From Lachnospiraceae bacterium (lineage in GTDB: Bacteria; Bacillota; Clostridia; Lachnospirales; Lachnospiraceae), in contig JAETRI010000022.1 of NCBI GenBank assembly GCA_021770245.1, positions 1-45,220 on the forward strand: a stretch of DNA of 45,220 bases, written 5' to 3'. Positions 7,730 through 44,708 of the stretch are shown in pieces. A program made the position numbers and the translations under genes. Position 1 is the stretch's first letter, and the number at the start of each line of letters is the position of its first letter. Under the pieces are notes generated by a model that worked only from the letters and a program-made list of their open reading frames with translations, was not told the origin of the DNA and did no database searches.

Positions 7730-7741
7730 TTTAACCACCAT

Positions 7742-7992
7742 TCTGCCGCCGCAAGGCGGCTCTCAATTCAAAGGGAACTTTCGTGCATAAGGTAACACTT
7801 CCGTGTTACCTGGCACAAATTCCCGATTGAAAAATGACCGCAGGTCACTTTTCAACCTAACCCCTTTCATACCGCGCCCTTTGCGGTACCGCGACATGAA
7901 ATCGCGTATGCGATTTCATGTCTGTAATTCCATTTGGGCCGCCTGCGACACAAATGCCGGTTGAAAAAAGGCCATCAGGCCTTTTTTCAACC
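7742..7992 (-). repeat. family 1 modular palindromic element, two tandem units, upstream of hisC
   Basis: Seven hairpins in a row, read on the minus strand towards hisC. First is an arm pair AAAAAAGGCC and GGCCTTTTTT with loop TGAT (7958-7992), which looks like an intrinsic terminator for the gene at 8094. Next come a GTCGC/GGCGGCC hairpin framed by CATTTG and CAAATG (7931-7956), a GACATGAAATCGC pair (7893-7922), an ATACCGC pair (7870-7888), a second terminator-like pair GTGACC/GGTCA (7825-7857), a nested GGTAACAC/GTGTTACC hairpin (7773-7824), and GCCGCC/GGCGGC (7745-7760). The last leads into AGAATGGTGGTTAAA before the hisC ATG. GGGGTTAG joins the two units. In 7993-8093 I see nothing further. 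Confidence 0.8.
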
Positions 7993-9841: not shown

Positions 9842-10891
9842 TCATGCCTGCCTCAGGCTGTCAAGGACGGCTTGCCTTCTTTCGATTACTTTATCACACC
9901 AAGCGTCAAATTCCGGATCCTCCCGGTGCAGAGACGGCGTATTTTTCACATGGCGCACCGTCTCACGAAGTCCCTCTGCCATGGTCTTACGAGGCATCCA
10001 GGAGGGCACCAGACGCCTCAGTTTCGATACATCGAATACTACGGAATTCGCCTTGTCTCCCAGCAGAGAACCGGTCAGATCATACACATGCCCGCCTGCT
10101 GCCGCCAAAAATTCCGAGGAAATATGGACCGCCTGCAGCTCCACGCCCAATTCGTCCGCGATCACCCCGTATATCTGGTTCCATGTCATACTTTCGGGAG
10201 ACATGATCTGCACGGCCTGGCCCAGCGCACGGGGATTACCGAGAAGTCCGATAAAACCCGACGCAAAGTCGCTGTTATGGGTCATCGTCCACAGGGAGGT
10301 CCCGTCCCCGTGAATGATGACGGGTTTTTCCTCCAGCATACGTTTTAAAACCTGCCAGCTGCCATATTTCCCATGCACCCCCACAGGAACGGAACGTTCG
10401 TCAAAGGTATGGCTGGGACGCACGATTGTCATCGGGAACCCCTCGTCTCGATACAGCCCATACAAATACTCTTCACAGGCAATCTTGTCTCTGGCATAGG
10501 CCCAATAGGGATTCACCTGCGGCGTGCTCTCCGTGATCCTATAATCCAGAACCGGTTTCTGGTAGGCCGCCGCAGAACTGATAAATACGAATTGCTTTAC
10601 TTTTCCCCGGAATAGGCGGTAATCCCGTTCAAGCTGCTCCTTTTTAAAGGCAATAAAATCCGCAGCGACGTCAAAGGTAAGCCCGTCCAGCCTTTCTGCC
10701 GCCTCCCTCTCATCCGCAATATCCACCCGGATTTCCTTCGGGCGGTTCCATACCCCGCCGGGAAGCAGCACTGCCAGGCCGTCATTCCGGTTTCCTCTGT
10801 TTACGAGATACAGCTCATGGCCCTCCTCCAGAATTTTCCGGGTGATAGCCATGCTGATTGTTCCTGTTCCTCCAATTAACAGTATTTTCAT
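9842..10891 (-). CDS. NAD-dependent epimerase/dehydratase family protein
   Basis: A 349-residue extended short-chain dehydrogenase of the nucleotide-sugar epimerase type. The Rossmann dinucleotide loop is GGTGTIS at residues 7-13. The catalytic tyrosine and lysine fit Y-x-x-x-K in YARDK, and VRPSHTFDERSVPVG matches the usual substrate loop. Substrate is unknown; these relatives act on UDP-sugars or on mRNA-binding paralogues. The start at 10891 is favoured by GGAGG five bases before it. An upstream ATG at 10966 in the same frame would run through a palindromic repeat. It is preceded by one of the longest family 1 elements and followed by a clear terminator, so it appears to be its own unit. 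Confidence 0.88.
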   Translation of the reverse strand: MKILLIGGTGTISMAITRKILEEGHELYLVNRGNRNDGLAVLLPGGVWNRPKEIRVDIADEREAAERLDGLTFDVAADFIAFKKEQLERDYRLFRGKVKQFVFISSAAAYQKPVLDYRITESTPQVNPYWAYARDKIACEEYLYGLYRDEGFPMTIVRPSHTFDERSVPVGVHGKYGSWQVLKRMLEEKPVIIHGDGTSLWTMTHNSDFASGFIGLLGNPRALGQAVQIMSPESMTWNQIYGVIADELGVELQAVHISSEFLAAAGGHVYDLTGSLLGDKANSVVFDVSKLRRLVPSWMPRKTMAEGLRETVRHVKNTPSLHREDPEFDAWCDKVIERRQAVLDSLRQA

Positions 10892-10903
10892 CTTAACCTC
10901 CAT

Positions 10904-11206
10904 TCCGAAGCGTTTACGCGACGGGGCGATGAGAATTCGCGTATGCGAATTCTCATCTGCCATCAAAGCTATTTGCGACGCTCCGGTGCAAATAGCCAGG
11001 CGAATCTGGTTCGCCTGTGAAACAATAAGCCATCAGGCTTATTTTTCACACTAACTGACATGCCGCGCCCTGCGCGGCAGCGCAACATGAATCTTCGATT
11101 CATGTCTGAGAAATCGCGAATGCGATTTCTCATCTGTGATTTAGTTTAGGCCGCCTGCGGCACAAATTGCGATTGGAAAATAAACCATAGAGATTATTTC
11201 CCAATC
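10904..11206 (-). repeat. family 1 modular palindromic element, long tandem copy upstream of the epimerase
   Basis: On the minus strand, in order: a terminator-like pair at 11171-11206 (degenerate, CTAT loop region), a GTGCCGC/GGCGGCC hairpin, GAGAAATCGC/GCGATTTCTC, ATGAATC/GATTCAT, TGCCGCGC/GCGCGGCA, then a fresh unit. That unit starts after AGTTAG with AAATAAGCC/GGCTTATT (11018-11050), AGGCGAA/TTCGCCT (10998-11016), TATTTGC/GCAAATA (10970-10994) and GATGAGAATTCGC/GCGAATTCTCATC (10928-10957). It ends in CGGAATGGAGGTTAAG directly before the epimerase ATG. In 11207-11279 I see nothing else. The whole 388-nt gap is therefore almost entirely repeat. Confidence 0.8.
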
Positions 11207-11279
11207 TACTTTCATCTACATGCCTTTACGGATAAACAAATCAGGTTAAATATCCTTAATTGACAGAATGTATCCCATT

Positions 11280-12421: not shown

Positions 12422-13125
12422 ATATCAATTCATTTTCTCCATATGGAGGAAGACACATTGAGCGGCAGCAGGGATCCCAGGATAAAGGCATTTCAATCCA
12501 CTTCCTCCACGCGGAGGAAAACTGGTGTAAGCAAGGCATTCCACCTTGTTCACATATTTCAATCCACTTCCTCCACGCGGAGGAAGACGTGGCCCGTGGA
12601 AATTCGATAAGAGGAGAAGAAAATTTCAATCCACTTCCTCCACGCGGAGGAAGACAACGCCTGCGGTATTCCATCGCAAAAATAATAAAATTTCAATCCA
12701 CTTCCTCCACGCGGAGGAAGACCATTTCTGGACAAGGGATTTGTGGATAGCCTTTGCATTTCAATCCACTTCCTCCACGCGGAGGAAGACAAAATGAAGA
12801 TACAAGCAATATTTCCACATGACATTTCAATCCACTTCCTCCACGCGGAGGAAGACGTTTTCCGGGATAGGGATCTCTTCTTCAATTACATATTTCAATC
12901 CACTTCCTCCACGCGGAGGAAGACCATTAATGGACTACACCCCCGTCGCCGCCATCGTCATTTCAATCCACTTCCTCCACGCGGAGGAAGACTCCATTAC
13001 CCTTGGTGGGCGTGGGGACAAAATCATTTCAATCCACTTCCTCCACGCGGAGGAAGACGATAGGTCGTGATCAGGGAGTTGGACATCCAAGTATTTCAAT
13101 CCACTTCCTCCACGCGGAGGAAGAC
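12422..13125 (-). CRISPR. type I-C CRISPR array: 11 repeats, 10 spacers
   Basis: The 33-bp repeat, read on the plus strand, starts ATTTCAATCC and ends GGAGGAAGAC, with a CTTCCTCC/GGAGGAAG stem. On the minus strand it reads GTCTTCC ... ATTGAAAT, the I-C pattern. Repeats start at 12422, 12490, 12556, 12623, 12690, 12758, 12824, 12892, 12960, 13026 and 13093. Spacers are 33-35 nt and all different. Nine repeats are identical; 12490 has one change and 12422 has seven. Decay at the left end, with the leader and cas2 on the right, fixes transcription leftward and newest spacers on the right. No spacer matched the rest of this window by eye. Confidence 0.98.
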
Positions 13126-13306
13126 GGCAAAAATAACCTATATTCCCCTATTTCCCACCCCACTTTATATCACATTTTACTAATTTCCCTTTCTATTCCC
13201 AGAGTGTTGTTCATAATATAGTTTATTTTTGCACAGCACAAAACGATTTCAAGGTGCGAACCCCCTTAGGCATTCCTGTCCGCTCCAGGTCCGCACCCTC
13301 GCATTT
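13126..13306 (-). promoter_or_regulatory. CRISPR leader
   Basis: AT-rich, gene-free stretch between cas2 and the newest repeat, as expected for the leader that drives pre-crRNA transcription and directs spacer integration. It contains a TATATTATG-like -10 region (about 13213-13222, minus strand). It also contains an imperfect inverted repeat GGTGCGAACC (13253-13262) and GGTCCGCACC (13288-13297), which I recall being common between cas2 and the array in clostridial I-C loci. Its role is not known to me. Confidence 0.7.
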
Positions 13307-14788: not shown

Positions 14789-15512
14789 TCAGTCTTCCCC
14801 GTCCATATGTTCCTCCACATACCGGCTGGCTGATTTTCCCTTCCCGAGAATGGGCAGGCAGATATCCCGCAGTGAACAGGCGTTACAGCTTTTGCTCCAT
14901 TTTACTTTTGGAGTATATTTTCTTGAAAAATAACCGTGCATTTCCGAAAACATGCTCCTGACCGTATCCCTCACCTCTTCCGTCAGCTCCACCTTTTCCC
15001 GACGGCGGGTCTCCCCATAGAAAAGATAGCCACAGGGAATCTCACAGCACAGCATCTCTTCCAGGCACATGGCCTGGGCGGCCAGCTGCAGTATGTCCGT
15101 CTGGTCCCTTTTAGGATGTCCCCTTTTATATTCCACAGGTACGACACAGTATTTTCCCGCATAACCCTGCAGGGGGATTCCTTCTTCGCAACGGTAAAAC
15201 TCCACCACATCGCATTCACCGCTAACTCCCGTCTGCCCGCTTTAGCGGGCATTCAAATCAGGATCGTGAAATCGAAGATTTCACGCTAATGCCCATCTGT
15301 CTGGAACGGACCGGCATGGCCCGCGAAATGATCCGTTCCCCTCTCTTTTCCCTGCTCGTCACGTCATGGGCCTTTTCATGCAGAAGCTTCCCCTCCACGG
15401 TCCTCACATTTTCCATCCACTGCAGTTCAATATACGCCAGGGCCCATTGTCTTTTGCAGAAGGCAAAATGCTGGATACCTGACAGCTGTAAATATTCCTC
15501 CTCTTCATACAA
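14789..15512 (-). pseudogene. cas4: cas4 split by a 64-nt palindromic insertion
   Basis: Cas4 is an Fe-S nuclease that trims prespacers and checks the PAM. The N-terminal part (15258-15512, probable TTG start giving MYEEEEYLQLSGIQHFAFC, overlapping the cas7 end by 8 nt) keeps the first Fe-S cysteine (HFAFCKRQW). It runs into an insertion at 15228-15291, which brings a TGA after about 84 residues. The rest (to 14789) keeps the nuclease residues (ECDVVEFY, VPVEYKRGHPK) and three Fe-S cysteines (KSCNACSLRDIC). Removing exactly 64 nt restores one frame of 660 nt, 219 residues, the normal Cas4 size, with QMGVSGECD at the join. This is strong evidence of a recent insertion. Confidence 0.92.
15228..15291 (-). 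repeat. family 1 (short form) palindromic element inserted in cas4
   Basis: Two hairpins: GTGAAATC/GATTTCAC (15266-15284) and TGCCCGC/GCGGGCA (15234-15251), joined by a CCTGATTTGA linker. On the minus strand it is preceded by CAGATGGGCATTAGCG and ends in CAGACGGGAGTTAGCG, an imperfect 16-base direct repeat (13 of 16). The copy at 41841-41911 is almost identical from GTGAAATC to GTTAG, so this is a repeat copy and not a coding feature. The end carries GGGAG, the same string that precedes start codons at 23365 and 25238. Confidence 0.9.
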
Positions 15513-16371: not shown

Positions 16372-16483
16372 GCATTCTGCCGCCGCCCGGCGGCTCTTTA
16401 TCCAAGAGGATTTTGTGCATAAGATAACATTTCCATAGTTACCTGGCACAAGTCCCGGGTTGAAAGCGTCCTTCCTGCAGCCT
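16372..16483 (-). repeat. family 1 element between cas8c and cas7
   Basis: Minus strand: a nested hairpin centred on GGTAACTATG and CATTGTTATC-like arms (16407-16455, closely matching 7773-7824 upstream of hisC), then GCCGCC/GGCGGC (16379-16394), then AGAATGCGAGG directly before the cas7 ATG. It supplies the cas7 ribosome site. Its presence separates two genes that are normally adjacent or overlapping in I-C operons, so it is likely an insertion too. Confidence 0.75.
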
Positions 16484-23370: not shown

Positions 23371-23430
23371 CTCCCATCTGCGCGCTAAAGCGCTCACTCA
23401 AATCAGGAATGCCAAAAGCATTCCCGCTCC
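23371..23430 (-). repeat. family 1 (short form) element upstream of the lipoprotein
   Basis: Minus strand: GGAATGC/GCATTCC stem (23406-23424), a CCTGATTTGA linker, an imperfect GAGCGC/GCGCGC stem with TTTA loop (23380-23395), then CAGATGGGAG six bases before the ATG. It has the same layout as the cas4 insertion, but both stems have different bases that still pair. Confidence 0.8.
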
Positions 23431-25057: not shown

Positions 25058-25158
25058 CGCCGGATACCGATTTCCGTATACCCTGCCATACCGTAGGAAA
25101 AGCCGCCTCGGGACGGCAGAAAAGAAAAAGGGTGAAAGGAAATCTCTTTCAGCTTCCC

Positions 25159-25232
25159 TGACTGAAGCGCGCTTTAGCGCGCAGACGGGATCACCCTGAT
25201 TGGTACGCACGCTTTAGCGTGCAGATGGGAGA
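25159..25232 (+). repeat. family 1 (short form) tandem pair upstream of the second MATE gene
   Basis: Two hairpins, GCGCGC-TTTA-GCGCGC (25167-25182) and GCACGC-TTTA-GCGTGC (25207-25222). Each is followed by CAGAYGGGA, with a CCCTGATTGG linker between. The second CAGATGGGAG is the ribosome site for the next gene. The two stems differ at paired positions. Confidence 0.8.
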
Positions 25233-30383: not shown

Positions 30384-30385
30384 CG

Positions 30386-30413
30386 CTGCTCCCCTCTGCG
30401 CGCTTTGGCGCGT
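30386..30413 (-). repeat. family 1 end fragment before GH35
   Basis: CGCGCC-AAA-GCGCGC-like stem (about 30398-30412) followed on the minus strand by CAGAGGGGAG and the ATG, the same end layout as at 23371 and 25207. It lies directly after the permease stop. Confidence 0.65.
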
Positions 30414-31247
30414 TCATCCCTTCAGCCCGCTGTGCACCATCCCGTTGGTAATCTGTTTCTCAAAAATCAGAAAAACAATGAGAATGGGAATCAGAGAGCA
30501 AACCGTTCCGGCCATAATGATCGTATACTGCGCGGTATGCTCCGACTGGAAAAATTTCAGCCCGAGCTGTATGGTATATTTTTCCTTTGTATTCAGATAA
30601 ATCAACGGCGCCATGTAATCGTTCCATACCTGGATAAAGGTAAAAATGATCAAAGTAGCCAGCGCCGGTTTCGCCTGGGGCAGCATAATCCGCCCGAAGG
30701 TTAAGAGTTCTCCCGCCCCGTCGATGCGCGCCGCCTCGATCAGTTCATCCGGCACGGTTAAGAAGAACTGCCGGAGCAGAAAGATCCCGAAAGCGCTCGC
30801 CAGCTGTCCCATGATCAGGGCCAGATGGGTATCCGTCAGATGCAGGGCGCTGATGATCTGATATTGGGGAATCATGATCGTGTGCCACGGCACCATCATG
30901 GTGGCGATATACAGGCCGAAGATAAAGTTTTTCCCCGCGAATCGAAGCTTGGCAAAGGCATAGGCCGCCAGGGCGCTGATGAACACCTGTCCTGCCGTGG
31001 CGCAGACGGCCACAAATGCGGTGTTTTTATAAAAAGTGAAGAACGGTTCCTCCGTCCATACCTTACTATAGTTGCTCCAGTTCACGGGATTCGGAATCCA
31101 CTGGATGGGTACGGTAAATACCTGGCTGTCGAATTTCAGAGAGGTGGAGATCATCCACAGGAAGGGAAAAATCATGAACAGCGACAGGAGGAACATCAGG
31201 ACGTAATACAGGACGTTTCCGATCGGTTTTTTCTTCTTCATATCCAT
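30414..31247 (-). CDS. carbohydrate ABC transporter permease (MalG-type)
   Basis: A 277-residue membrane subunit of a CUT1 sugar importer with six predicted helices. The EAA loop that touches the ATPase is EAARIDGAGELLTFGRIMLP. The N-terminal NVLYYVLMFLLSLFMIFPFLWMI and the ending QITNGMVHSGLKG (the last residues, G-L-K-G) are typical of the MalG/LacG group. It is paired with the upstream permease (seven-base gap). The ATPase is not encoded nearby, and a shared MsmX-like ATPase is the usual solution. Confidence 0.95.
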   Translation of the reverse strand: MDMKKKKPIGNVLYYVLMFLLSLFMIFPFLWMISTSLKFDSQVFTVPIQWIPNPVNWSNYSKVWTEEPFFTFYKNTAFVAVCATAGQVFISALAAYAFAKLRFAGKNFIFGLYIATMMVPWHTIMIPQYQIISALHLTDTHLALIMGQLASAFGIFLLRQFFLTVPDELIEAARIDGAGELLTFGRIMLPQAKPALATLIIFTFIQVWNDYMAPLIYLNTKEKYTIQLGLKFFQSEHTAQYTIIMAGTVCSLIPILIVFLIFEKQITNGMVHSGLKG

Positions 31248-32196: not shown

Positions 32197-33564
32197 TCAG
32201 TCAGCCATAACCTCCGCACGACGGTCTTCAAAGTTCTTCAGCGCCTCTTCCAGCGTCTGTTCCCCGATCAGGTACAGTTCGCGTTCCTCCTTTTCCACGG
32301 TGGAAAGTTCCGTGTATTCCGGGATGAAGAGAGTCTCCGAGATCTTCGCAGGCCCCAGCAGGTTTTCCGCCCCGGATACGCCGAGAGCTTCCTCAAATAC
32401 GCCCGTAATCTCGTCGTCGATGTATGCGGGGATTGCGCCTGCGGCAGCGATATATTTAGCCGCATCCTTTCCTGCCATATAGGAAATGAATTCGAAAGCT
32501 GCTTCCTGCTTCTGCGAGGATGCGTTGATTCCGATGAAGGTGCTCACACCGCCGATGGTAACGGGATCCTTGCCGGCCTCCGGCTGCGGTACGGTGGCGA
32601 TCCCCAGTTCAAAGGTATCCGCGAGCGTGGGATCATTCTTCAACATGGTTAAAGCGTCGCTGATCGACCACTCGCCGCCCGGATACATATAGCATCTGCC
32701 GCTGCAGAAGAAGTTGACGCCGTCGGTACCGGAGCTCTTCATATCGGTAAAGCTCATATGGGAATTGTCCGTATTATAGAGCCTGTTTTCCATTTCCCAC
32801 CATTCCTGCAGGGCGCTTAAATCATCGTCCGCCAGGTTGGAATTTCTTTCGATCGTAATATAAGGGCAGTTGTTCCAGTCCGGGATATAACCGCCATAGA
32901 TCCTGTCATTCCCTTCGCCCTCCGTCAGCCGGGCCGCCAGATCGGCATACTCGTCCCAGGTTAAGTTGTCCGGATAGTCAATCCCCTTCGCATCGAACAT
33001 CTTCTTGTTGTAGAACAGCCCGTAAGCGGACGCACGGTAAGGCAGACCGTAGAATTTACCGTCCACGGCTGTTTCCGCATATCCGGTACCGTAAACGGAA
33101 ACATCCAGGCCGCTTTCGCTGATCATCTGTGAAATATCCGCCAGATTGCCGCTGGTGGCCAGGTTGCTCAGCAGGGATCCGGAACGCATATTGAACACAT
33201 CGATATCGTTGGATCCTGCCAGCATAGTCATCAGCTTATCGTCGTACTCCTCGCTGCTCACCTGGGTCATCTCCACCGTCACGTTTTCGCTGGATGCGTT
33301 GAAGGCGTCCACCATCTCCTTCAGGTAATCGCCCTCACTCCAGGAATAATACTGAATGGTCACCTTTTCGCCGCTGCCCGCGCCGTCCGCCGTGTCCGTA
33401 TCCGCCGCCGGAGCGCCGCTCTCCTCCGAACTCTCCGCAGCCGTGGAAGCCTCTGCGCTCTCCGTCTGCCCCTGGGACGAAGACTCCGGCTGTGAACCGC
33501 AGCCTGCAAGCAGGGTCATCCCCATCACTGCCGCCATTGACAGAGCGATCACTTTTCTTTTCAT
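32197..33564 (-). CDS. sugar ABC transporter substrate-binding lipoprotein
   Basis: A 455-residue family 1 solute-binding protein. The signal peptide ends in LLAGC (C22), followed by a Ser/Glu/Ala-rich linker to about residue 55. The mature domain begins EKVTIQYYSWSEGDYLKEMVD and has the hinge pattern of extracellular CUT1 receptors (FYNKKMFDAKG, YMYPGGEWSISDA, IAAAGAIPAY). The start is the ATG at 33564 after GGGAGG; the open frame continues upstream through a large palindrome, but without homology. It is transcribed from a strong-looking promoter at 33917-33945, which leaves a ~340-nt 5' leader. Confidence 0.95.
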   Translation of the reverse strand: MKRKVIALSMAAVMGMTLLAGCGSQPESSSQGQTESAEASTAAESSEESGAPAADTDTADGAGSGEKVTIQYYSWSEGDYLKEMVDAFNASSENVTVEMTQVSSEEYDDKLMTMLAGSNDIDVFNMRSGSLLSNLATSGNLADISQMISESGLDVSVYGTGYAETAVDGKFYGLPYRASAYGLFYNKKMFDAKGIDYPDNLTWDEYADLAARLTEGEGNDRIYGGYIPDWNNCPYITIERNSNLADDDLSALQEWWEMENRLYNTDNSHMSFTDMKSSGTDGVNFFCSGRCYMYPGGEWSISDALTMLKNDPTLADTFELGIATVPQPEAGKDPVTIGGVSTFIGINASSQKQEAAFEFISYMAGKDAAKYIAAAGAIPAYIDDEITGVFEEALGVSGAENLLGPAKISETLFIPEYTELSTVEKEERELYLIGEQTLEEALKNFEDRRAEVMAD

Positions 33565-33567
33565 ACA

Positions 33568-33596
33568 TACCTCCCATTCCGCCGCCTGCCGGCGGC
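33568..33596 (-). repeat. family 1 end fragment before the binding-protein gene
   Basis: GCCGCC-GGCA-GGCGGC stem (33581-33596) followed on the minus strand by GGAATGGGAGG and the start, matching the ends at 7745-7760, 16379-16394 and 44837-44852. Confidence 0.65.
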
Positions 33597-33618
33597 ACTT
33601 CATTTTGACCTGACAGGC

Positions 33619-34729: not shown

Positions 34730-34741
34730 GAATAATCCTTC

Positions 34742-34810
34742 CATGCCGCGTCCTGCGCGGCAGCGCAACATGAATCTTCGATTCATGTCTGAGAAATCGC
34801 GAATACGATT
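34742..34810 (-). repeat. family 1 element between kinase and response regulator
   Basis: Minus strand GAAATCG region, ATGAATC/GATTCAT stem, then TGCCGCGC/GCGCGGCA-type stem and GCGGCATGGAAGGATTA before the regulator ATG. The same order occurs at 10904-11206 and in part at 41841-42042. The leading terminator-like hairpin is missing here, in keeping with co-transcription of kinase and regulator. Confidence 0.75.
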
Positions 34811-36277
34811 TTACACTTCCTCAATCACCGGCAGCAGGATGCGGATCCGCGTCCCTTTCCCCTCCCCGCTGTCGGCCATGATCTTCCCACGGTGGCTGTT
34901 CACAATCCTTTTGCAAAAGGTAAGGCCGATGCCCCAGTTCTGTTTGGTGGATTTCGTCGATACGAAGGGGTCGAACAGCCGGGTCTGCATGGATGGGGAA
35001 AGCCCGGGGCCCGTATCCCGGACCGAGATCTCCACCTCACCGTCGTACAGACGGGTCTGCACATAGATCCTGCGCTCCCCATCCATGCCGGACATGGCCT
35101 CCATGGCGTTGCGAAAGAGATTACGGAATACCTCCCGCATATAATACGGATCCAGGAAAACGACGATTTCCTCCTTCTCGCCCTCCCATAGAATCTCACA
35201 GCCCTCCTTTTGCAGCAGGGTGCGGTTTTCCTCCACGGCCTTCGTAATCACTTCGGCCAGGTTCTGCCTGGACTGATTCAACACGATACGGTTCGTATGT
35301 TTCTGCAGCTCGTTGAGCCTCTCATAGATTTCTTCGCAGGCCGTCCGAATATTCTCCGGCTCCCTGTACTCTCCCGCCGTCTTCCGGGACAGGGCCTCCG
35401 CCTCTGCGATGATTCCCAAAAGCTCGTTTTTCACATAATGGCTGAAGGATCTGGTGGAGATTTCCGAAGAAGCGATAATGCTGGAGAAGACGACCTCCTC
35501 CTCCAGGACGCTTCTGCGCATTTTCTGATAACGGGCAAACGTATAAAAGAGAAGGAGCAGAAGCAGACCGATCAGATAGGTAATCAGGCGCATCCCGCGC
35601 ACATAGGGAGCCATATCCAGGGAATGCCAGGCGATATAGCCCGTGGAGCGTGAGATCCAGAGAAAGGCGTCCGGCAGGGAAAAATACATATAGAAATACA
35701 GACCGATCAGGCAGGCCTCCGTCATCAGGATAAAGCATTTAATGCGCCACAACTCGCGGATCGGTTCCCTGCGCAGGTCTACCAGAAACATCCATGCGCA
35801 GCCGCAGACCAGAAAAAGGAAATTTCCGCACATGGTGATATAGTGAAAAACCCGGTAAAAGCTGCGGAAACCTCTGGGCGAGGGCAGAAAGCCCAGCTTT
35901 CCGAAATAGATCGCCTTCTGAAGGCCGGTACTGTACACCACTGCCTGCAGAAGGAGGAACAGAGACAGCACGATCAGGATACCGGTCCGCTTCCTTCGGC
36001 CCTTTCTGGGGCTGCCGAACCAGAAAAGCAGGAAGTTGCCCATCAGGAATGCCAGCCCGCACAGGTTCATCCCTGCGGCCAGGGCGTCCTTGCTGATCTT
36101 CAGATAGATCAGCTTCCCGTACATTTCCTTGCTGACGTTAAAATACTGGAAAATCATATTATTGTAATTGTTGTCCTTTGCCATATAGATCATGGAAAAT
36201 GTCGTGATCCCGACAAAGGAAATCAATAAAACAGCCAGGGGTATGAAAATCCATCCGATGCTCGTCTTCTCTTTCAT
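34811..36277 (-). CDS. membrane sensor histidine kinase
   Basis: A 488-residue kinase. About six or seven hydrophobic segments fill residues 8-250, with an extracytoplasmic loop after the first (about 32-60). The phospho-accepting region is SFSHYVKNELLGI with H280. The ATPase domain has the N box REVFRNLFRNAMEAM (N390), G1 DTGPGL (421-426), F box RLFDPF and G2 GIGLTFCKRIV. The input domain is a multi-helix membrane sensor with no recognised family, so the stimulus is unknown. The ATG at 36277 follows GAAAGAGG; the longer frame to 36376 would cross a C-rich hairpin. Confidence 0.92.
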   Translation of the reverse strand: MKEKTSIGWIFIPLAVLLISFVGITTFSMIYMAKDNNYNNMIFQYFNVSKEMYGKLIYLKISKDALAAGMNLCGLAFLMGNFLLFWFGSPRKGRRKRTGILIVLSLFLLLQAVVYSTGLQKAIYFGKLGFLPSPRGFRSFYRVFHYITMCGNFLFLVCGCAWMFLVDLRREPIRELWRIKCFILMTEACLIGLYFYMYFSLPDAFLWISRSTGYIAWHSLDMAPYVRGMRLITYLIGLLLLLLFYTFARYQKMRRSVLEEEVVFSSIIASSEISTRSFSHYVKNELLGIIAEAEALSRKTAGEYREPENIRTACEEIYERLNELQKHTNRIVLNQSRQNLAEVITKAVEENRTLLQKEGCEILWEGEKEEIVVFLDPYYMREVFRNLFRNAMEAMSGMDGERRIYVQTRLYDGEVEISVRDTGPGLSPSMQTRLFDPFVSTKSTKQNWGIGLTFCKRIVNSHRGKIMADSGEGKGTRIRILLPVIEEV

Positions 36278-36374: not shown

Positions 36375-36520
36375 ACATTTTCATATAGGCCGGCGAACCG
36401 CGTCCTCTGCGGCCTGGCGGTGCCAAATCCGCGGATGAGATTTTTCGTCTGCGATTCAAATTTGGACCGTCTGCGGCGATACTGCAGCCAAGAGCAGGTT
36501 GGGAAGCAGGCTTTTAAACC
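36375..36520 (-). repeat. degenerate family 1 element between GH35 and kinase
   Basis: Minus strand: a decayed GGTTGAGGTT/AACC region, CGCCGCAGACGGTCC, AAATTTGAATCGCAGA, then a weak CTCATCCGCGGAT stem and CGCAGAGGACGCGG. The order matches 41912-42042, but the stems have many mismatches, so this is an old copy. Confidence 0.55.
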
Positions 36521-40393: not shown

Positions 40394-41803
40394 ATGCCCG
40401 TGAATTCCTTCGAAAACTACCCCATGGCATGGAAGCCGCAGAAAGAGAAATTGGGAAAGCCCTACTATCTTTCCCTGGCCGCCGGCCTGGAAAACGACAT
40501 CCGAACCGGAAAGCTTCCGGAAAATACCAAGCTGCCGCCCCAGAGAGAACTGGCGGACTATCTCGACCTGAATTTAAGCACCGTCACGAGGGCATATAAA
40601 CTGTGCGAATTAAAGGGACTCCTGTATGCCGTTACGGGGCGCGGCACCTTTGTCTCGCCCGGCCTCTCCGTTCAGGATACTTTCCTCGAAAGGGACGGCG
40701 GGATGATTGAAATGGGGATGATCAAACCGTTCTATGATGTCAATCAAAGCATCCGAGCCGCCGCGCAGCACGTGCTTGACAGTCCGGAATCCATCCGGCT
40801 TTTTGAGTACGGCAGCCCCTTTGGCACAAACCGGCAGACCGCTGCCGCTCTGAAATGGCTTCAGCGTTTCGGAATAGATGCGTCTGAGGACAATATCCTG
40901 CTTTCCGCCGGGGCGCAGAATGCCCTGGCCGTCGTCCTGATCTCGCTCTTTAAGCCTGGGGATAAAATAGCCGTGGATCATTTTACCTATACGAATTTCA
41001 AAGGCCTGGCCAATTTTTTACATATCCAGCTGATTGCCGTTCCCATGGATGAGCAGGGCATGTCCCCGGACGCCTTGCTGCAGGTCTGCGCCAATGCGGA
41101 AATAAAGGGGATTTACCTCATGCCCACCTGCAGCAATCCCACGGGCATTTTCATGCCTCCCTCCCGGAGAACCGGTCTGGCAGAAATCATACGCCGATAT
41201 GATCTGCTTCTGATCGAGGATGATATTTACTCCTTCCTGGCCGCTTACGGGCATGTACCCGCCGATACCCGGCCTTTCTTCTCCCTGCTTCCCGAACGCA
41301 CCGTCCATATCTGCAGTCTTTCAAAATCCTTGTGTCCCGGGCTGCGGGTGGCATTTCTCGCGTTTCCGGCTTCGTACAGGGAACGTCTGATTGGCGGCAT
41401 GCAAAACATCAATCTGAAGACCGTTTCCATCAACGGCGAAATCTTCGCGCAGCTCGTTGAAAGCGGAGAAGCGGAACGGATTATCGTGGATAAAATAAGG
41501 CTGGCCCAAAGAAGGAACCGGATCTTTTATTCCGTTTTTCCCTCCGGCAGGCCGGATGAGATGGAACGTTTCTTCCATTGGCTGCCCATTCCGGGCCGTC
41601 TTACCAGTGAGGAATTGGAATATGAGGCGCTGCGAAAGGGAATCCACGTTTTGGGCTCCCATAGGTTCGCCATGCAGGGCGGGAATCAATCCTCCTATGT
41701 GAGAGTGGCAACTGCTTCCCCCGGTACGGAGGACGACCTGCAAAAAGGGCTTCTGATCTTAAAAGGTATTTTTGAAACAAAACAGGCGGATTTCTTTGTC
41801 TGA
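40394..41803 (+). CDS. MocR/PdxR-family transcriptional regulator (GntR HTH plus aminotransferase domain)
   Basis: A 469-residue regulator. Residues about 20-90 are a GntR winged helix (KLPPQRELADYLDLNLSTVTRAYK, split in the window by no gap; recognition helix LSTVTRAYK at 61-69). Residues about 115-469 are a fold-type I aminotransferase domain with the PLP lysine in SLSKSLCPG (K311) and the NPTG loop in CSNPTGIF. Such proteins bind DNA and sense PLP or an aminated ligand. The operator overlaps its own promoter. The start at 40394 follows AAAGGACAG; an upstream ATG at 40340 would lie inside the promoter. Confidence 0.93.
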   Translation: MPVNSFENYPMAWKPQKEKLGKPYYLSLAAGLENDIRTGKLPENTKLPPQRELADYLDLNLSTVTRAYKLCELKGLLYAVTGRGTFVSPGLSVQDTFLERDGGMIEMGMIKPFYDVNQSIRAAAQHVLDSPESIRLFEYGSPFGTNRQTAAALKWLQRFGIDASEDNILLSAGAQNALAVVLISLFKPGDKIAVDHFTYTNFKGLANFLHIQLIAVPMDEQGMSPDALLQVCANAEIKGIYLMPTCSNPTGIFMPPSRRTGLAEIIRRYDLLLIEDDIYSFLAAYGHVPADTRPFFSLLPERTVHICSLSKSLCPGLRVAFLAFPASYRERLIGGMQNINLKTVSINGEIFAQLVESGEAERIIVDKIRLAQRRNRIFYSVFPSGRPDEMERFFHWLPIPGRLTSEELEYEALRKGIHVLGSHRFAMQGGNQSSYVRVATASPGTEDDLQKGLLILKGIFETKQADFFV

Positions 41804-41840
41804 TCTAAAGCGTATCACCGACAGGGGAGTCCGGCGGAAG

Positions 41841-42042
41841 GGGTTAACGTGAAATCTTCGATTTCACGATCCTGATTTGAATGCCCGCCGAGGCGGGCAG
41901 ATGGGGGTTAGATTGAAAAATAAGCCCGATGGCTTATTTTTCAATCGCAATTTGTGCCGCAGGCGGCCCAAATTGAATCGCAGATGAGAAATCGCATCCG
42001 CGATTTCTCATCGCGTTGCCGCATAGGACGCGGCATGGAGGA
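41841..42042 (+). repeat. family 1 element, best full copy, upstream of the GNAT gene
   Basis: A short-form unit (41841-41911: GTGAAATC/GATTTCAC stem at 41850-41868, TGCCCGCC/GGCGGGCA stem at 41882-41899, ending GATGGGGGTTAG) is followed by a long-form unit. The latter has an AAATAAGCC/GGCTTATTT terminator-like hairpin with CGAT loop, the CAATTTGTGCCGC/GGCGGCCCAAATTG nested hairpin, GAGAAATCGC/GCGATTTCTC, and GCCGC/GCGGC. It then ends in ATGGAGGATTAAA at the GNAT ATG. The first unit is nearly identical to the cas4 insertion. Confidence 0.9.
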
Positions 42043-42047
42043 TTAAA

Positions 42048-42473
42048 ATGGAATATCGAGAAAAGATATGCTCCTATGAAGATTATTCCCGGCTGAGAGC
42101 GAGCGTCGGGTGGACAAATTTCTCAAAAGCGCAGGCAGAGGCCGCATTAAGCCGCAGTCTGTACGCAGTAGCTGCGGTCGAAGGGAATCAAACGGTGGCC
42201 ATTGGCAGACTGATTGGGGACGGTCTCTATTATATGATCGCAGACGTAATCGTCCGGCCCGATTTTCAGGGGAGGAAAATCGGCACCTCCATCCTCCGTA
42301 TGCTGTTAAAATATGCGGACGATCATACCCCTGACGGCGGAAGGTCCAGCATCCAGTTAATCGCGGAAAAGGGCAGGGAGCCCTTTTATGAAGCTTTGGG
42401 ATTTAAAAGAATACCGCACGAATTCTGCGGAAGCGGCATGAGAAAAATCATACGCAAGATAGACGGGGGATAG
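42048..42473 (+). CDS. GNAT family N-acetyltransferase
   Basis: A 141-residue cytosolic acetyl-CoA-dependent acyltransferase. Motif A is the strand YMIADVIVRPDFQGRKIGTS with the pyrophosphate loop Q-G-R-K-I-G (residues about 75-80), and motif B is EPFYEALGFKR. A single compact domain of normal length. The acceptor is unknown. Ribosome site GGAGGATTAAA comes from the end of the repeat upstream. It is convergent with the GH3 gene. Confidence 0.9.
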   Translation: MEYREKICSYEDYSRLRASVGWTNFSKAQAEAALSRSLYAVAAVEGNQTVAIGRLIGDGLYYMIADVIVRPDFQGRKIGTSILRMLLKYADDHTPDGGRSSIQLIAEKGREPFYEALGFKRIPHEFCGSGMRKIIRKIDGG

Positions 42474-42503
42474 AAGAAGGGCCGTTACAATTGATAGCAA
42501 AAC

Positions 42504-42595
42504 CGCAATTTGTGCCGCAGGCGGCCCGAATTGAATCGCAGATGAGAAATCGCATTCGCGATTTCTCATCATGCTGCCGCGTAAGACGCGGCATG
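42504..42595 (+). repeat. family 1 partial copy between convergent GNAT and GH3 genes
   Basis: GCAATTTGTGCCGC/GGCGGCCCGAATTG, GAGAAATCGC/GCGATTTCTC and GCCGCGT/ACGCGGC hairpins, almost identical to 41946-42036. It is the one copy with no start codon after it: GCATGTCGGTTACAG runs into the GH3 stop, and the leading terminator-like hairpin is absent. Confidence 0.8.
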
Positions 42596-42599
42596 TCGG

Positions 42600-44708
42600 T
42601 TACAGTTCCACGGCAATCTTCACACAGCCATGCCCCAGAAGCGTCCTGCTCCTTTCGTCGGGCTGTCCGGTTCCCACATACAGGGTGAAACGGCGGCCTT
42701 CCACAAAACGCCGGCCTTCCCCGTCCACCACCGTCAGCGCCTCTGCCGGGACGCGCAGTGCCACCTTCCTGCTCTCTCCTGCTTCCAGACGGACGCGCGC
42801 GAAAGCGCAGAGACTGTGGTTTCTCACTGCATGGGCGGATTCCTCCGGCTTCACGTAAACCTGGATCACCTCATCCGTACCGCAGGTTCCGCGGTTTACC
42901 GCCGTCGCTTCTACCACAAAAGCTTCTCCCTCCCGGACCGCAGCCGGCAGACAGGCCTCCTCCACGGATACGTCCCCATAGGTTAAGCCGTACCCGAAGG
43001 GATAGAGCGGTTCTTTTTCCAGGTAACGATACGTCCTCCCCTTCATGGAATAATCCTCGAACGCCGGGAAGCCCTCCAAATCTTTATAAAAAGTCACCGG
43101 CAGTTTCCCGGAGGGAGAACAGGCGCCGAACAGGATATCCGCAACCGCCTTTCCTCCCCTGGCTCCCGGATACCAGGTCTGCAGGATGGCGTTCACATGG
43201 GCATCCGCATAGCACAGATCCACGGCGCTTCCGGTCATCATGCATAAAATCACAGGTTTTTTACAGCCTGCCACTGCCTCCAGCAGCTCCCGCTGTACCT
43301 CCGGCAGATTCAGATCCTGCTTATCCCCGGATGCGTAGCTGTTTCCCGTGTCCCCTTCCTCGCCTTCCAGCGTCTCGTCCAGCCCCAGGCACAGCACCAC
43401 CACGTCGGAATGCTCCGCCACAGTCAAGGCTTCCGAGATCCGGTCCTGCCGCATTCCCAGTCCTTCCACCCGGTCCTTGAACAGATGACAGCCCTGGGAA
43501 TAGAGCACGCGCACGTCTTCCCCTGCCGCATCCTGGATCCCCTCCAGCACCGTGATATAGCGGGAAGAGGTTCCGTGATAATTACCGATCAGGGCGGTTC
43601 TGTTATCCGCATTGGGCCCGATCACGCCGATGGTCTTTACACCGTCCTTTTTCAGCGGGAGGATCCCGTCGTTTTTCAAAAGCACCATGCCCTCTCTGGC
43701 CATCTTCTGCGCCAGCTTAAGGTGCTCTGCGCATTCCACCGTCTCATAGGGAATCTCATCGTACGCCGTTTTTTCAAAACATCCCAGTAAAAACCGGGTG
43801 GTAAACAGCCTCTCCGCAGCCTGCGTGATTTCCTCCTCCGTTACCATCCCCTGCTCATAGGCTTTTAACAGGTGCAGGTAAGTGACGCCGCAGTTAACGT
43901 CACAGCCCGCCTTCAATGCCATGGCGGCGGACTCTTCCGGCGTCTTAGTGACGCAGTGGCGCTCATGGAAGTCACTGATCGCCCAGCAGTCGGACACAAA
44001 ATGTCCGGCAAAGTTCCAATCCTTCCGCAAAATGTCCCGGATCAGGGTATTGCTGCCGCAGCAGGGTTCCCCGTTGGTTCGGTTATAGGCCCCCATCACG
44101 GCTTCTACTTCCCCTTCCTTTACACAGGCCTCAAAGGCTGGCAGATAGGTCTCGTACAGATCCTTTTTTCCCACCCGGGCATCGAACTCGTGCCTCACGC
44201 CCTCCGGCCCGGAATGCACCGCAAAATGTTTGGCGCAGGCTGCGGCTTTCAGGTGCTCCCCGTCGCCCTGCAGCCCCTTCACATAGGCCACGCCCAGCCG
44301 GGATGTCAAATAAGGATCCTCTCCGTACGTCTCATGCCCCCTGCCCCATCTGGGGTCCCTGAAAATATTTACGTTGGGAGACCAGAAGGTTAAACCCTTA
44401 TAAATATCCCTGTCCCCGTGCGCAGCGAATGCGTTATACTTTGCGCGCCCCTCCGCAGCCACTGCGGCGCCCACCTCCTCCAGCAGCTCTTCGTCAAAGG
44501 CAGCCGCCATCCCGACAGCCTGGGGGAAGCTGGTCGCCACCCCGGCCCGGGCCACGCCGTGCAGCGCTTCGTTCCACCAGTTATAGGCCGGAATTCCAAG
44601 CCGTGGAATCCCCGGCGCGTCGAATCGCAGCTGAGATGCCCTTTCCTCCAAAGTCATCTGTGCCACCAGATTTTTCGCAGCCTCTGCAGCTTTCTTCCTG
44701 TCTCTCAT
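42600..44708 (-). CDS. glycoside hydrolase family 3 beta-xylosidase/beta-glucosidase
   Basis: A 702-residue enzyme with no signal peptide. The N-terminal GH3 barrel shows YNWWNEALHGVARAG, FWSPNVNIFRDPRWGRGHETYGEDP, KHFAVHSGPEG and the nucleophile Asp in FVSDCWAISDFH (D240 from this start). The alpha/beta sandwich (about 340-560) and a C-terminal fibronectin-III-like domain (about 600-700, ending RTLLGHGCVKIAVEL) follow. The motif set suits the beta-xylosidase/beta-glucosidase branch; the sugar cannot be settled from sequence. The start at 44708 is preceded by GCGAGGAG; an ATG four codons earlier is possible. Confidence 0.93.
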   Translation of the reverse strand: MRDRKKAAEAAKNLVAQMTLEERASQLRFDAPGIPRLGIPAYNWWNEALHGVARAGVATSFPQAVGMAAAFDEELLEEVGAAVAAEGRAKYNAFAAHGDRDIYKGLTFWSPNVNIFRDPRWGRGHETYGEDPYLTSRLGVAYVKGLQGDGEHLKAAACAKHFAVHSGPEGVRHEFDARVGKKDLYETYLPAFEACVKEGEVEAVMGAYNRTNGEPCCGSNTLIRDILRKDWNFAGHFVSDCWAISDFHERHCVTKTPEESAAMALKAGCDVNCGVTYLHLLKAYEQGMVTEEEITQAAERLFTTRFLLGCFEKTAYDEIPYETVECAEHLKLAQKMAREGMVLLKNDGILPLKKDGVKTIGVIGPNADNRTALIGNYHGTSSRYITVLEGIQDAAGEDVRVLYSQGCHLFKDRVEGLGMRQDRISEALTVAEHSDVVVLCLGLDETLEGEEGDTGNSYASGDKQDLNLPEVQRELLEAVAGCKKPVILCMMTGSAVDLCYADAHVNAILQTWYPGARGGKAVADILFGACSPSGKLPVTFYKDLEGFPAFEDYSMKGRTYRYLEKEPLYPFGYGLTYGDVSVEEACLPAAVREGEAFVVEATAVNRGTCGTDEVIQVYVKPEESAHAVRNHSLCAFARVRLEAGESRKVALRVPAEALTVVDGEGRRFVEGRRFTLYVGTGQPDERSRTLLGHGCVKIAVEL

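Follow-up and report, generated by a model that had tools for sequence, protein, structure and literature searches.

The stretch of DNA analyzed here in its full length, hereafter the window (45,220 nucleotides of contig JAETRI010000022.1 from a Lachnospiraceae bacterium), contains hairpin repeats that are real and more extensive than first noted. They comprise several related module families, for which we coined the labels M1-M4 and which mostly terminate in a G+C hairpin with a Shine-Dalgarno (SD) core after it. M1 (~135 nt) begins with (T)TAG[A/G]TTGAAAAATAAGCC and contains several hairpins and a terminal G+C hairpin, most often followed by CATGGAGGATTA. M2 and M4 are shorter (~65 nt each) and consist of a single A+T-rich hairpin joined by a linker like CCTGATTTGNAT to a G+C hairpin, after which comes the end CAGATGGGAG; M3 ends in GGCGGCAGAATGGTGGTTA. 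The modules chain, with the end of one serving as the left flank of the next, and tandem arrays are present at C71:104524-104787, C66:106373-106564 and C201:21823-22219. The ends fall into two classes, a majority that is SD-like (GGAGG, GGGAG, AAAGG, GTGG) and a minority with CATG[T/C]CGGTTA or similar that lacks an SD, represented in the window by the ends at 42501-42601 and, with TCAG, at 11054.

An M2 module at 41845..41909 (+) is composed of the hairpin CGTGAAATC/GATTTCACG, a linker, the G+C hairpin GCCCGCC/GGCGGGC and the end CAGATGGGGGTTAG. Directly 3' of this end sits a full-length M1 element (41909..42045, +) that terminates in GCGGCATGGAGGATTA, and its SD (GGAGG, 42037-42041) is followed by the start codon ATG at 42048-42050 of a 141-aa ORF (together 42037..42050, +). 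The right part of another M1 (42501..42601, +) has the non-SD end CATGTCGGTTA and a convergent gene ahead of it. Elsewhere in the window, an M1 at 7864..7992 (-), ending in TATGAAAGGGGTTAG, is followed by an M3 unit (7739..7833, -; end GGCGGCAGAATGGTGGTTA) with the ATG 7729 next, and an M1 at 11054..11208 (-), whose end CATGTCAGTTA has no SD, is followed by a second M1 (10896..11053, -; end GGAATGGAGGTTA) with an ATG at 10891. In the orthologous place of the latter in the relative G011, the flank matches are 60 nt apart, as against 400 in the window genome. A copy of M2 lies within cas4 (15215..15288, -), where the empty allele in G011 is GGCAGATGGGGATAAGCG. Start codons also follow an M3 unit at 16373..16465 (-; end GGCAGAATGCGAGG, ATG 16362), an M4 tail at 23371..23422 (-; end GCAGATGGGAG, ATG 23365), two tandem M4-type units at 25128..25231 (+; end CAGATGGGAG, ATG 25238) and the right part of an M1 at 34737..34811 (-; end GCGGCATGGAAGGATTA, ATG 34729). 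A degenerate M1 at 36392..36512 (-) has an end without an SD. These assignments rest on sequence and profile matches. Two further copies were recognized by eye only: an M4 tail at 30384..30420 (-), with a GCGC hairpin and GGGGAG before the ATG 30383, and a GCCGCC/GGCGGC hairpin with GAATGGGAGG ahead of a start codon at 33562..33599 (-), which amounts to no more than a G+C hairpin plus SD. The curated covariance models of Rfam gave no match in the whole window at the gathering threshold or in 41800-42650 at E up to 1. Other hairpin-SD types, among them GCTTGCGATATGCAGGGGTATAA and GGCGGCAGAATGAGAGGAAA, were also seen ahead of start codons (G000:C118, C9 and others, G000 being the window genome).

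A preliminary description, made from sequence alone, had placed copies of one hairpin family at twelve places in the window. The copies held at 12/12 places (at 30386 and 33568 on visual reading alone), as did the claim that most end in an SD and then a start codon, but a minority end class without an SD exists. The claim of a single family sharing the same ordered hairpins failed, since there are several module families instead.

The interrupted cas4 gene

The M2 copy splits cas4 into halves that match PF01930 positions 3-45 and 66-159. The first in-frame start of the second half, GTG 15208, lies 17 nt past the GGGAG that the copy delivers, whereas a nearer GTG, 6 nt past it, is out of frame; the idea that this SD restarts cas4 is unsupported, with either the frame or the spacing being wrong. 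The insertion site GGCAGATGGGGATAAGCG resembles the M2 end, which is a hint that a sequence rather than the function of a site is recognized. A CRISPR array of 10 repeats (window 12485-13143) adjoins cas1, cas2 and the split cas4.

Copy number and phyletic distribution

A comparison of 216 bases of the window with the genome recovered at least 107 matches with E no higher than 0.01 (a lower bound, with 40 of 312 candidates scored), including 42 forward matches at E below 1e-38; many of the weaker matches are palindromes read on the opposite strand. Our genome sample of 27 stretches (1,104,516 bases, or 1.10 Mb; 939 genes called by a simple script) holds 130 element clusters, which extrapolates by proportion to ~500 clusters in the whole genome, and a further 74 clusters occur in the fetched stretches of relatives. 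Six of the 27 sampled contigs were chosen as long and already known to hold a copy. Most G011 stretches were likewise chosen for holding a copy, and hence the cluster density of the relatives is biased upward.

M1 is present in 13/61 genomes: the window genome, 9/12 other congeners (G003-G011) and, outside the genus, G018, G024 and G043. The R1 model, which represents M2/M4, matches 18/299 genomes of the family, the window genome and G011 included, in a scan that undercounts owing to strict filters and the scoring of at most 16 candidates per genome. Among the top R1 loci in eight further genera, 7/8 have an ATG 5-6 nt past the profile end, L172 being without one. Searched as an exact 32-mer in one genome per GTDB species, the first hairpin gave 78 matches in 76 stretches, 71 of which are titled Eisenbergiella and the others Lachnospiraceae, Eubacteriales, [Clostridium] symbiosum and Veillonellaceae (draft assemblies can be mistitled). 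Some M1-like sequences (L187, L199, L204, L245) have lost most of the interior and retained both ends, as if the ends alone were needed.

No element match was found in the plasmid sequences searched, and the viral contigs searched gave a single pattern match, which has only the first hairpin in common with M1. Three unverified phage scaffolds from human faeces each carry an M1 with an SD-like flank on its left and an SD plus ATG on its right. One ORF on such a scaffold begins with what we take to be an enolase-like start; hence, the scaffolds deposited as phage are probably bacterial.

Conservation of the hairpins

The G+C hairpin is kept through two-sided changes in 44 diverse M2/M4 units, in which two of its pairs show 16 and 9 sequences with such changes. 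Across the whole M2/M4 structure there are 45 double-change cells, as against 13.1 in shuffled alignments and no more than 19 when the structure was slid as a control, and the covariation score and the paired cells are also above all 500 shuffles. Two of the five covariation measures are not above the shuffles, namely pairs with a double change (6 versus 5.1) and further pair types (20 versus 18.7). The first helices of M2 and M4 are one base out of register, and the proposed pair 41-61 is no pair. The SD accessibility predicted by folding is no better than that of other genes (0.480 versus 0.458, p=0.23); the idea that the hairpins raise it was rejected, and we accordingly claim no improved translation.

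The compensatory changes, the mosaic and nested modules and the frequent occurrence before sampled genes would suit a domesticated cis-regulatory leader, in which the hairpin and SD are kept for translation or mRNA stability and spread by gene conversion instead of transposition. We consider this unlikely. Copies up to 99% alike occur at many places with different downstream sequence, one copy breaks cas4, and the distribution in the family is patchy, as the R1 counts above show. Moreover, the GTDB congener G012 shows no match to M1-M4 across 400 kb, sampled as 20 spread stretches, and yet uses SDs to an equal extent (0.84, versus 0.81 in both the window genome and G011). Whether hairpins at this position are simply usual in these bacteria was controlled by counting any hairpin (perfect stem of at least 6, with at least 4 G-C pairs) with its 3' end at -18..-12, which gives 74/808 genes in the window genome, 53/467 in G011 (from biased stretches) and 1/283 in G012; this result also favors the main reading given below.

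Position relative to the SD and start codon

We set the end class of each cluster by the motif found from 8 nt before to 14 nt after its end, leaving three own clusters (those of the window genome) and three of relatives at stretch edges out of the position test. The 127 own clusters divide into 87 with SD-like ends, 8 with TCGG and 32 with neither, and the 71 clusters of relatives into 61, 0 and 10, respectively. An ATG that opens a frame of 60 codons or more (or one that continues past the stretch edge) is present 2-12 nt downstream of 52/87 own and 43/61 relatives' SD-ended clusters, against a background of 5.2% at random intergenic and 6.5% at random genome positions; none of the 8 TCGG-ended clusters has one. 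A looser test, which allows GTG/TTG and 22 nt, is met by 69/87 and 50/61, but is less informative because its background is 20-26% and the mirror test gives 13/87 and 9/61. Clusters with neither end have an ATG within 22 nt in 8/32 own and 2/10 relatives' cases. For three own clusters the position falls within a called gene, and the gene caller at times extends starts into elements.

For M1 alone, the analysis comprised 107 distinct full-length copies, 53 from the window genome and 54 from other genomes. All 54 of the latter are SD-ended, and an ATG lies 6-19 nt after the hairpin foot in 48/54. The 53 own copies include 38 that are SD-ended (22 with an ATG), 10 that are TCGG-ended and 5 that are neither; an ATG follows 3/10 of the TCGG-ended copies at 12-19 nt from the hairpin foot. 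Only 10/22 own solo SD-ended copies have an ATG 6-19 nt after the hairpin foot, and another module follows some of the rest. The mirrored question, asked at the left end of M1, is answered positively in 6/107.

Selection by the 32-mer was made without knowledge of the right end, and after leaving out 3 duplicates and 18 matches running off the record, it contains 31 full-length M1 matches, all SD-ended and 27 with an ATG, and 26 that are not full-length. We viewed 25 of these 26, and by eye 24 have the same end type with a different interior, L238 being the one that differs. Among the 54 distinct matches with 330 nt downstream, 48 are followed by an SD and start (the start being ATG in 46, and the spacer of the same length in 32), and the left flank is SD-like in 47. 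For this broad SD-plus-start test the background is 21%, and the mirrored test gave 7 positives (no denominator).

The preliminary description had held that a strong codirectional excess of copies ending at the SD would support its reading and that placement random with respect to gene starts and orientation would refute it. The excess was found on about a quarter of the genome (the 52/87 clusters above, versus 5-6% background) and again in the relatives. As separate observations, M1 precedes the same gene in two genomes (G000:C233:76698-76862 and L214), and in an allele without M1 (L228) the stop and start of adjacent genes overlap (GTGATGG); because of this overlap in the empty allele, an M1 insertion would uncouple the two genes.

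Source of the right-hand SD

In 72 solo M1 copies that are not TCGG-ended (68 of them SD-ended), the TGGAGG of the right end carries 1.0-1.8 bits per base, as against 0-0.7 in the left flank, with 1.1 at the A adjoining the element; the left scores are lowered by variable spacing. We read the right SD as element-borne because it is better conserved than the left one. Exact GGAGG occurs on the right in 29/46 and on the left in 17/46 solo copies of other genomes, and in 14/33 versus 6/33 own solo copies, GGAGG being found upstream of 31% of sampled genes. If any of GGAG, GAGG or AGGA is accepted, the contrast is weaker (44 versus 36 of 46 in other genomes; 19 versus 18 of 33 own).

The left flank is itself SD-like in 58/68 solo SD-ended M1 copies (17/22 own, 41/46 other), compared with 1/7 TCGG-ended copies, 0/4 that end in neither motif and 17% of random intergenic 14-mers; an earlier copy set gave 35/47 for copies not TCGG-ended and 1/7 for TCGG-ended ones. 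Non-SD ends with CATG[T/C]CGGTTA or close to it (own L013, L016, L022, L027, L028 and L030; window 42501-42601) are mostly without SD-like left flanks.

A rival explanation holds that the right SD does not belong to the element and arose as a target-site duplication of the native one. In its favor, among copies with an SD on both sides, the two flanks resemble each other more closely than permuted pairs do (0/2000 permutations for all 45; p=0.047 for the 14 own solo copies), and near-identical flanks occur in the single copies L017, L063, L054, G011 C23 and G011 C32:13502. Against it, the right TGGAGG is conserved and the left variable (part of the low left score coming from spacing), several clean filled/empty pairs have a new right SD unlike the native one, and each unit of the tandem arrays carries an SD. 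We therefore regard duplication as very unlikely. The likeness of the flanks could possibly reflect subfamilies differing in both end and target, duplication or recombination between element junction and target, any of which would explain it and which are not separable here.

Filled and empty sites

Flank matching against G011, G010 and G008 yielded 25 filled/empty pairs, about a third of them clean by eye, the remainder involving other modules, a different number of units or unalignable stretches. A second run with tighter limits and more loci gave 17 pairs that partly overlap the 25; one of these matches stays inside a single tandem array, and in #66 and #68 the two similar stretches compared come from one genome. 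Three clean cases concern SD sites. At C71:92032 the empty site is GCAGGAGTAACTTTATG and the filled one GGCAGGAGTA|...GCAGATGGGAGCCATTTATG; at G011 C2:84418 the empty site is AAAGGAGAACATATCATG and the right end of the filled one GCAGATGGGAGTCAATCATG; at L204 the corresponding sequences are AGGAGTGAAGCATATGG and CGGCATGGAGGTAAATATGG. In all three, the native SD is the left flank of the element and the right SD differs from it, and these pairs show that insertion occurs just 3' of the native SD. Two clean non-SD cases, GGGTATTA|AAGTAATAG (#68) and CAGGATA|CTATATGC (#101), have the element end TCGGTTA and only (T)TA at the junction. Both sides are flanked there by TA or TTA, though TTA is the element's own end, and there is no consistent longer duplication.

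The mobility of the repeats, which the preliminary description treated as a condition, is supported by these filled and empty alleles, from which it is inferred. Its suggestion that the element, if mobile, lands on and regenerates ribosome sites is supported by the SD-like left flanks found when solo M1 copies are SD-ended, and by the stronger conservation of the right SD.

The pattern could also arise by untargeted insertion plus selection, if A- or TA-ended sites are hit and, between SD and start, only SD-restoring copies survive. The TCGG-ended copies away from SDs, with their 1/7 SD-like left flanks, and the bare (T)TA junctions of #68 (within one genome) and #101 speak for it. However, non-SD sites are safer and far more numerous, yet 41/46 solo copies elsewhere have an SD-like left flank, as do 47/54 copies chosen by the first hairpin alone. 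Hence, we consider this account unlikely, though selection may contribute, and its share relative to site choice is not resolved.

The repeats, their insertion as seen from empty sites, their position and orientation, and the conserved right SD and hairpins are direct observations. The reading that likely accounts for them best is that these are non-autonomous, hairpin-rich mobile repeats of a group of gut bacteria, that their insertion takes place directly 3' of SD-like sequences, and that the 3' end of the repeat is itself a strong SD. Under this reading, insertion would strand the original SD on the left side, and the SD of the element, ~5-7 nt from the untouched start codon, would take over translation; use of the delivered SD is inferred, there being no expression data. 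An as yet unidentified recombinase most likely recognizes the SD-like target or the matching element end, with insertion after (T)TA or A beside the hairpin, perhaps via a single strand (held by the hairpins) or a circle, although this recognition and the chemistry are likewise inferred. Nested and tandem arrays would follow because the new element end is itself a landing site. The interpretation offered in the preliminary description is on the whole supported, with the qualifications that the enzyme is unidentified, that selection may contribute and that expression data are lacking.

Search for the mobilizing enzyme

The Y1 transposase model (PF01797) has no match in the window genome (G000) or in G003-G006, G008 and G011 (81-97% complete); drafts may miss genes. 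Matches were found in G001, G002, G007, G009, G010 and G012, of which G007, G009 and G010 are element-bearing congeners. The reverse transcriptase model RVT_1 has no match in G011, and TnpB-type proteins occur only in G000 and G012 and not in G011. As the element-bearing G011 is without a match to any of the three, a Y1, reverse transcriptase or TnpB-type mover is unsupported. Among the other candidates, five possible autonomous copies with an ORF between two M1 halves were weak or likely independent insertions and none was accepted, and, on visual inspection, integron attC-like ends matched neither M2 nor M4. At L026 (G000:C89:40162-40269 onward), the M1 hairpin is directly followed by a sequence resembling the 5' end of a group II intron (GTGTGCCC...GGGCACACGC), with an RVT_1 ORF at C89:41019-41642; this is likely an intron inserted in the M1 repeat.

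Relationship to known palindromic repeats

The present repeats meet the MITE description of short, non-autonomous, multi-copy and mobile elements, their mobility being inferred from the filled and empty alleles. One could regard them as ordinary REP/RAYT or IS200/IS605-derived repeats. REPs of the IS200/IS605 Y1 family are similarly short, high-copy palindromes with a short tag at one end, and those with GTAG are tied to Y1 transposases (PMC3733652). The subterminal hairpins, asymmetric ends, short boundary motif and nesting seen here agree with this, as do the Y1 matches in G007, G009 and G010. Against it, there is no Y1 match in the window genome or in 6/9 other element-bearing congeners (with the above caveat on drafts), and the REP tag is GTAG or CGTC, whereas the present repeats, read by eye, lack either at the hairpin and have TTAG or CAAG boundaries and an SD end. 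This origin is thus unlikely.

YPAL/RU-2 of Yersinia resembles the present repeats in having internal rather than terminal inverted repeats and in that its mobility was deduced from empty and filled sites (PMC2229807). Its targets span or adjoin dyad symmetry, and, unlike the present repeats, no SD delivery is described in the relevant sections of that paper. ERIC, Correia/NEMIS, RUP and BOX are also small non-autonomous repeats near genes with TA at many ends (PMC2229807, PMC10969869), but most of them have terminal inverted repeats. The present repeats by eye have none, the left end being GATTGAAA or GTGTGAAA and the complement of the right end TAATCCTCC. Some bacterial MITEs act on mRNA (PMC2229807, PMC10969869); the main text of a 2024 MITE review (PMC10969869) contains no words beginning with ribosom or Shine and no mention of start codon. 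Rickettsia palindromic elements likewise occupy potentially harmful sites, keeping the gene open and lying in frame in ORFs (PMC10969869), but they lie within coding sequence and the present repeats at the translation start. The TAACTGA repeats of Beggiatoaceae are concentrated just upstream of start codons (PMC4679880), but are heptamer direct repeats with little SD character, and no SD-ended hairpin element appears in the relevant sections of PMC4679880.

Small palindromic mobile repeats are already known, and the new aspect would be SD targeting combined with SD delivery. The preliminary description knew of no described repeat that consistently delivers the SD, and none was found in the open-licence literature searched or in the relevant sections of two reviews. 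A bolder reading, toward which we lean by a narrow margin, is that this is the first described mobile DNA that targets the SD for integration and rebuilds it by its own end.

Implications for translation starts

A gene is expected to suffer damage when DNA inserts between its ribosome-binding site and start codon. If the proposed reading is true, an element that targets and restores precisely that site would represent a new way of being harmless, and its self-renewing landing site would let it colonize translation starts, possibly of essential genes too. In some genomes, roughly one in ten sampled genes has a hairpin ahead of it that ends at -18..-12. The identity of an enzyme that recognizes the SD in DNA is a question that this raises, and the element would also be a possible natural portable ribosome site. 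For the genomes that carry it, the reading would imply a genome-wide remodelling of translation starts, in which translationally coupled gene pairs could be split.
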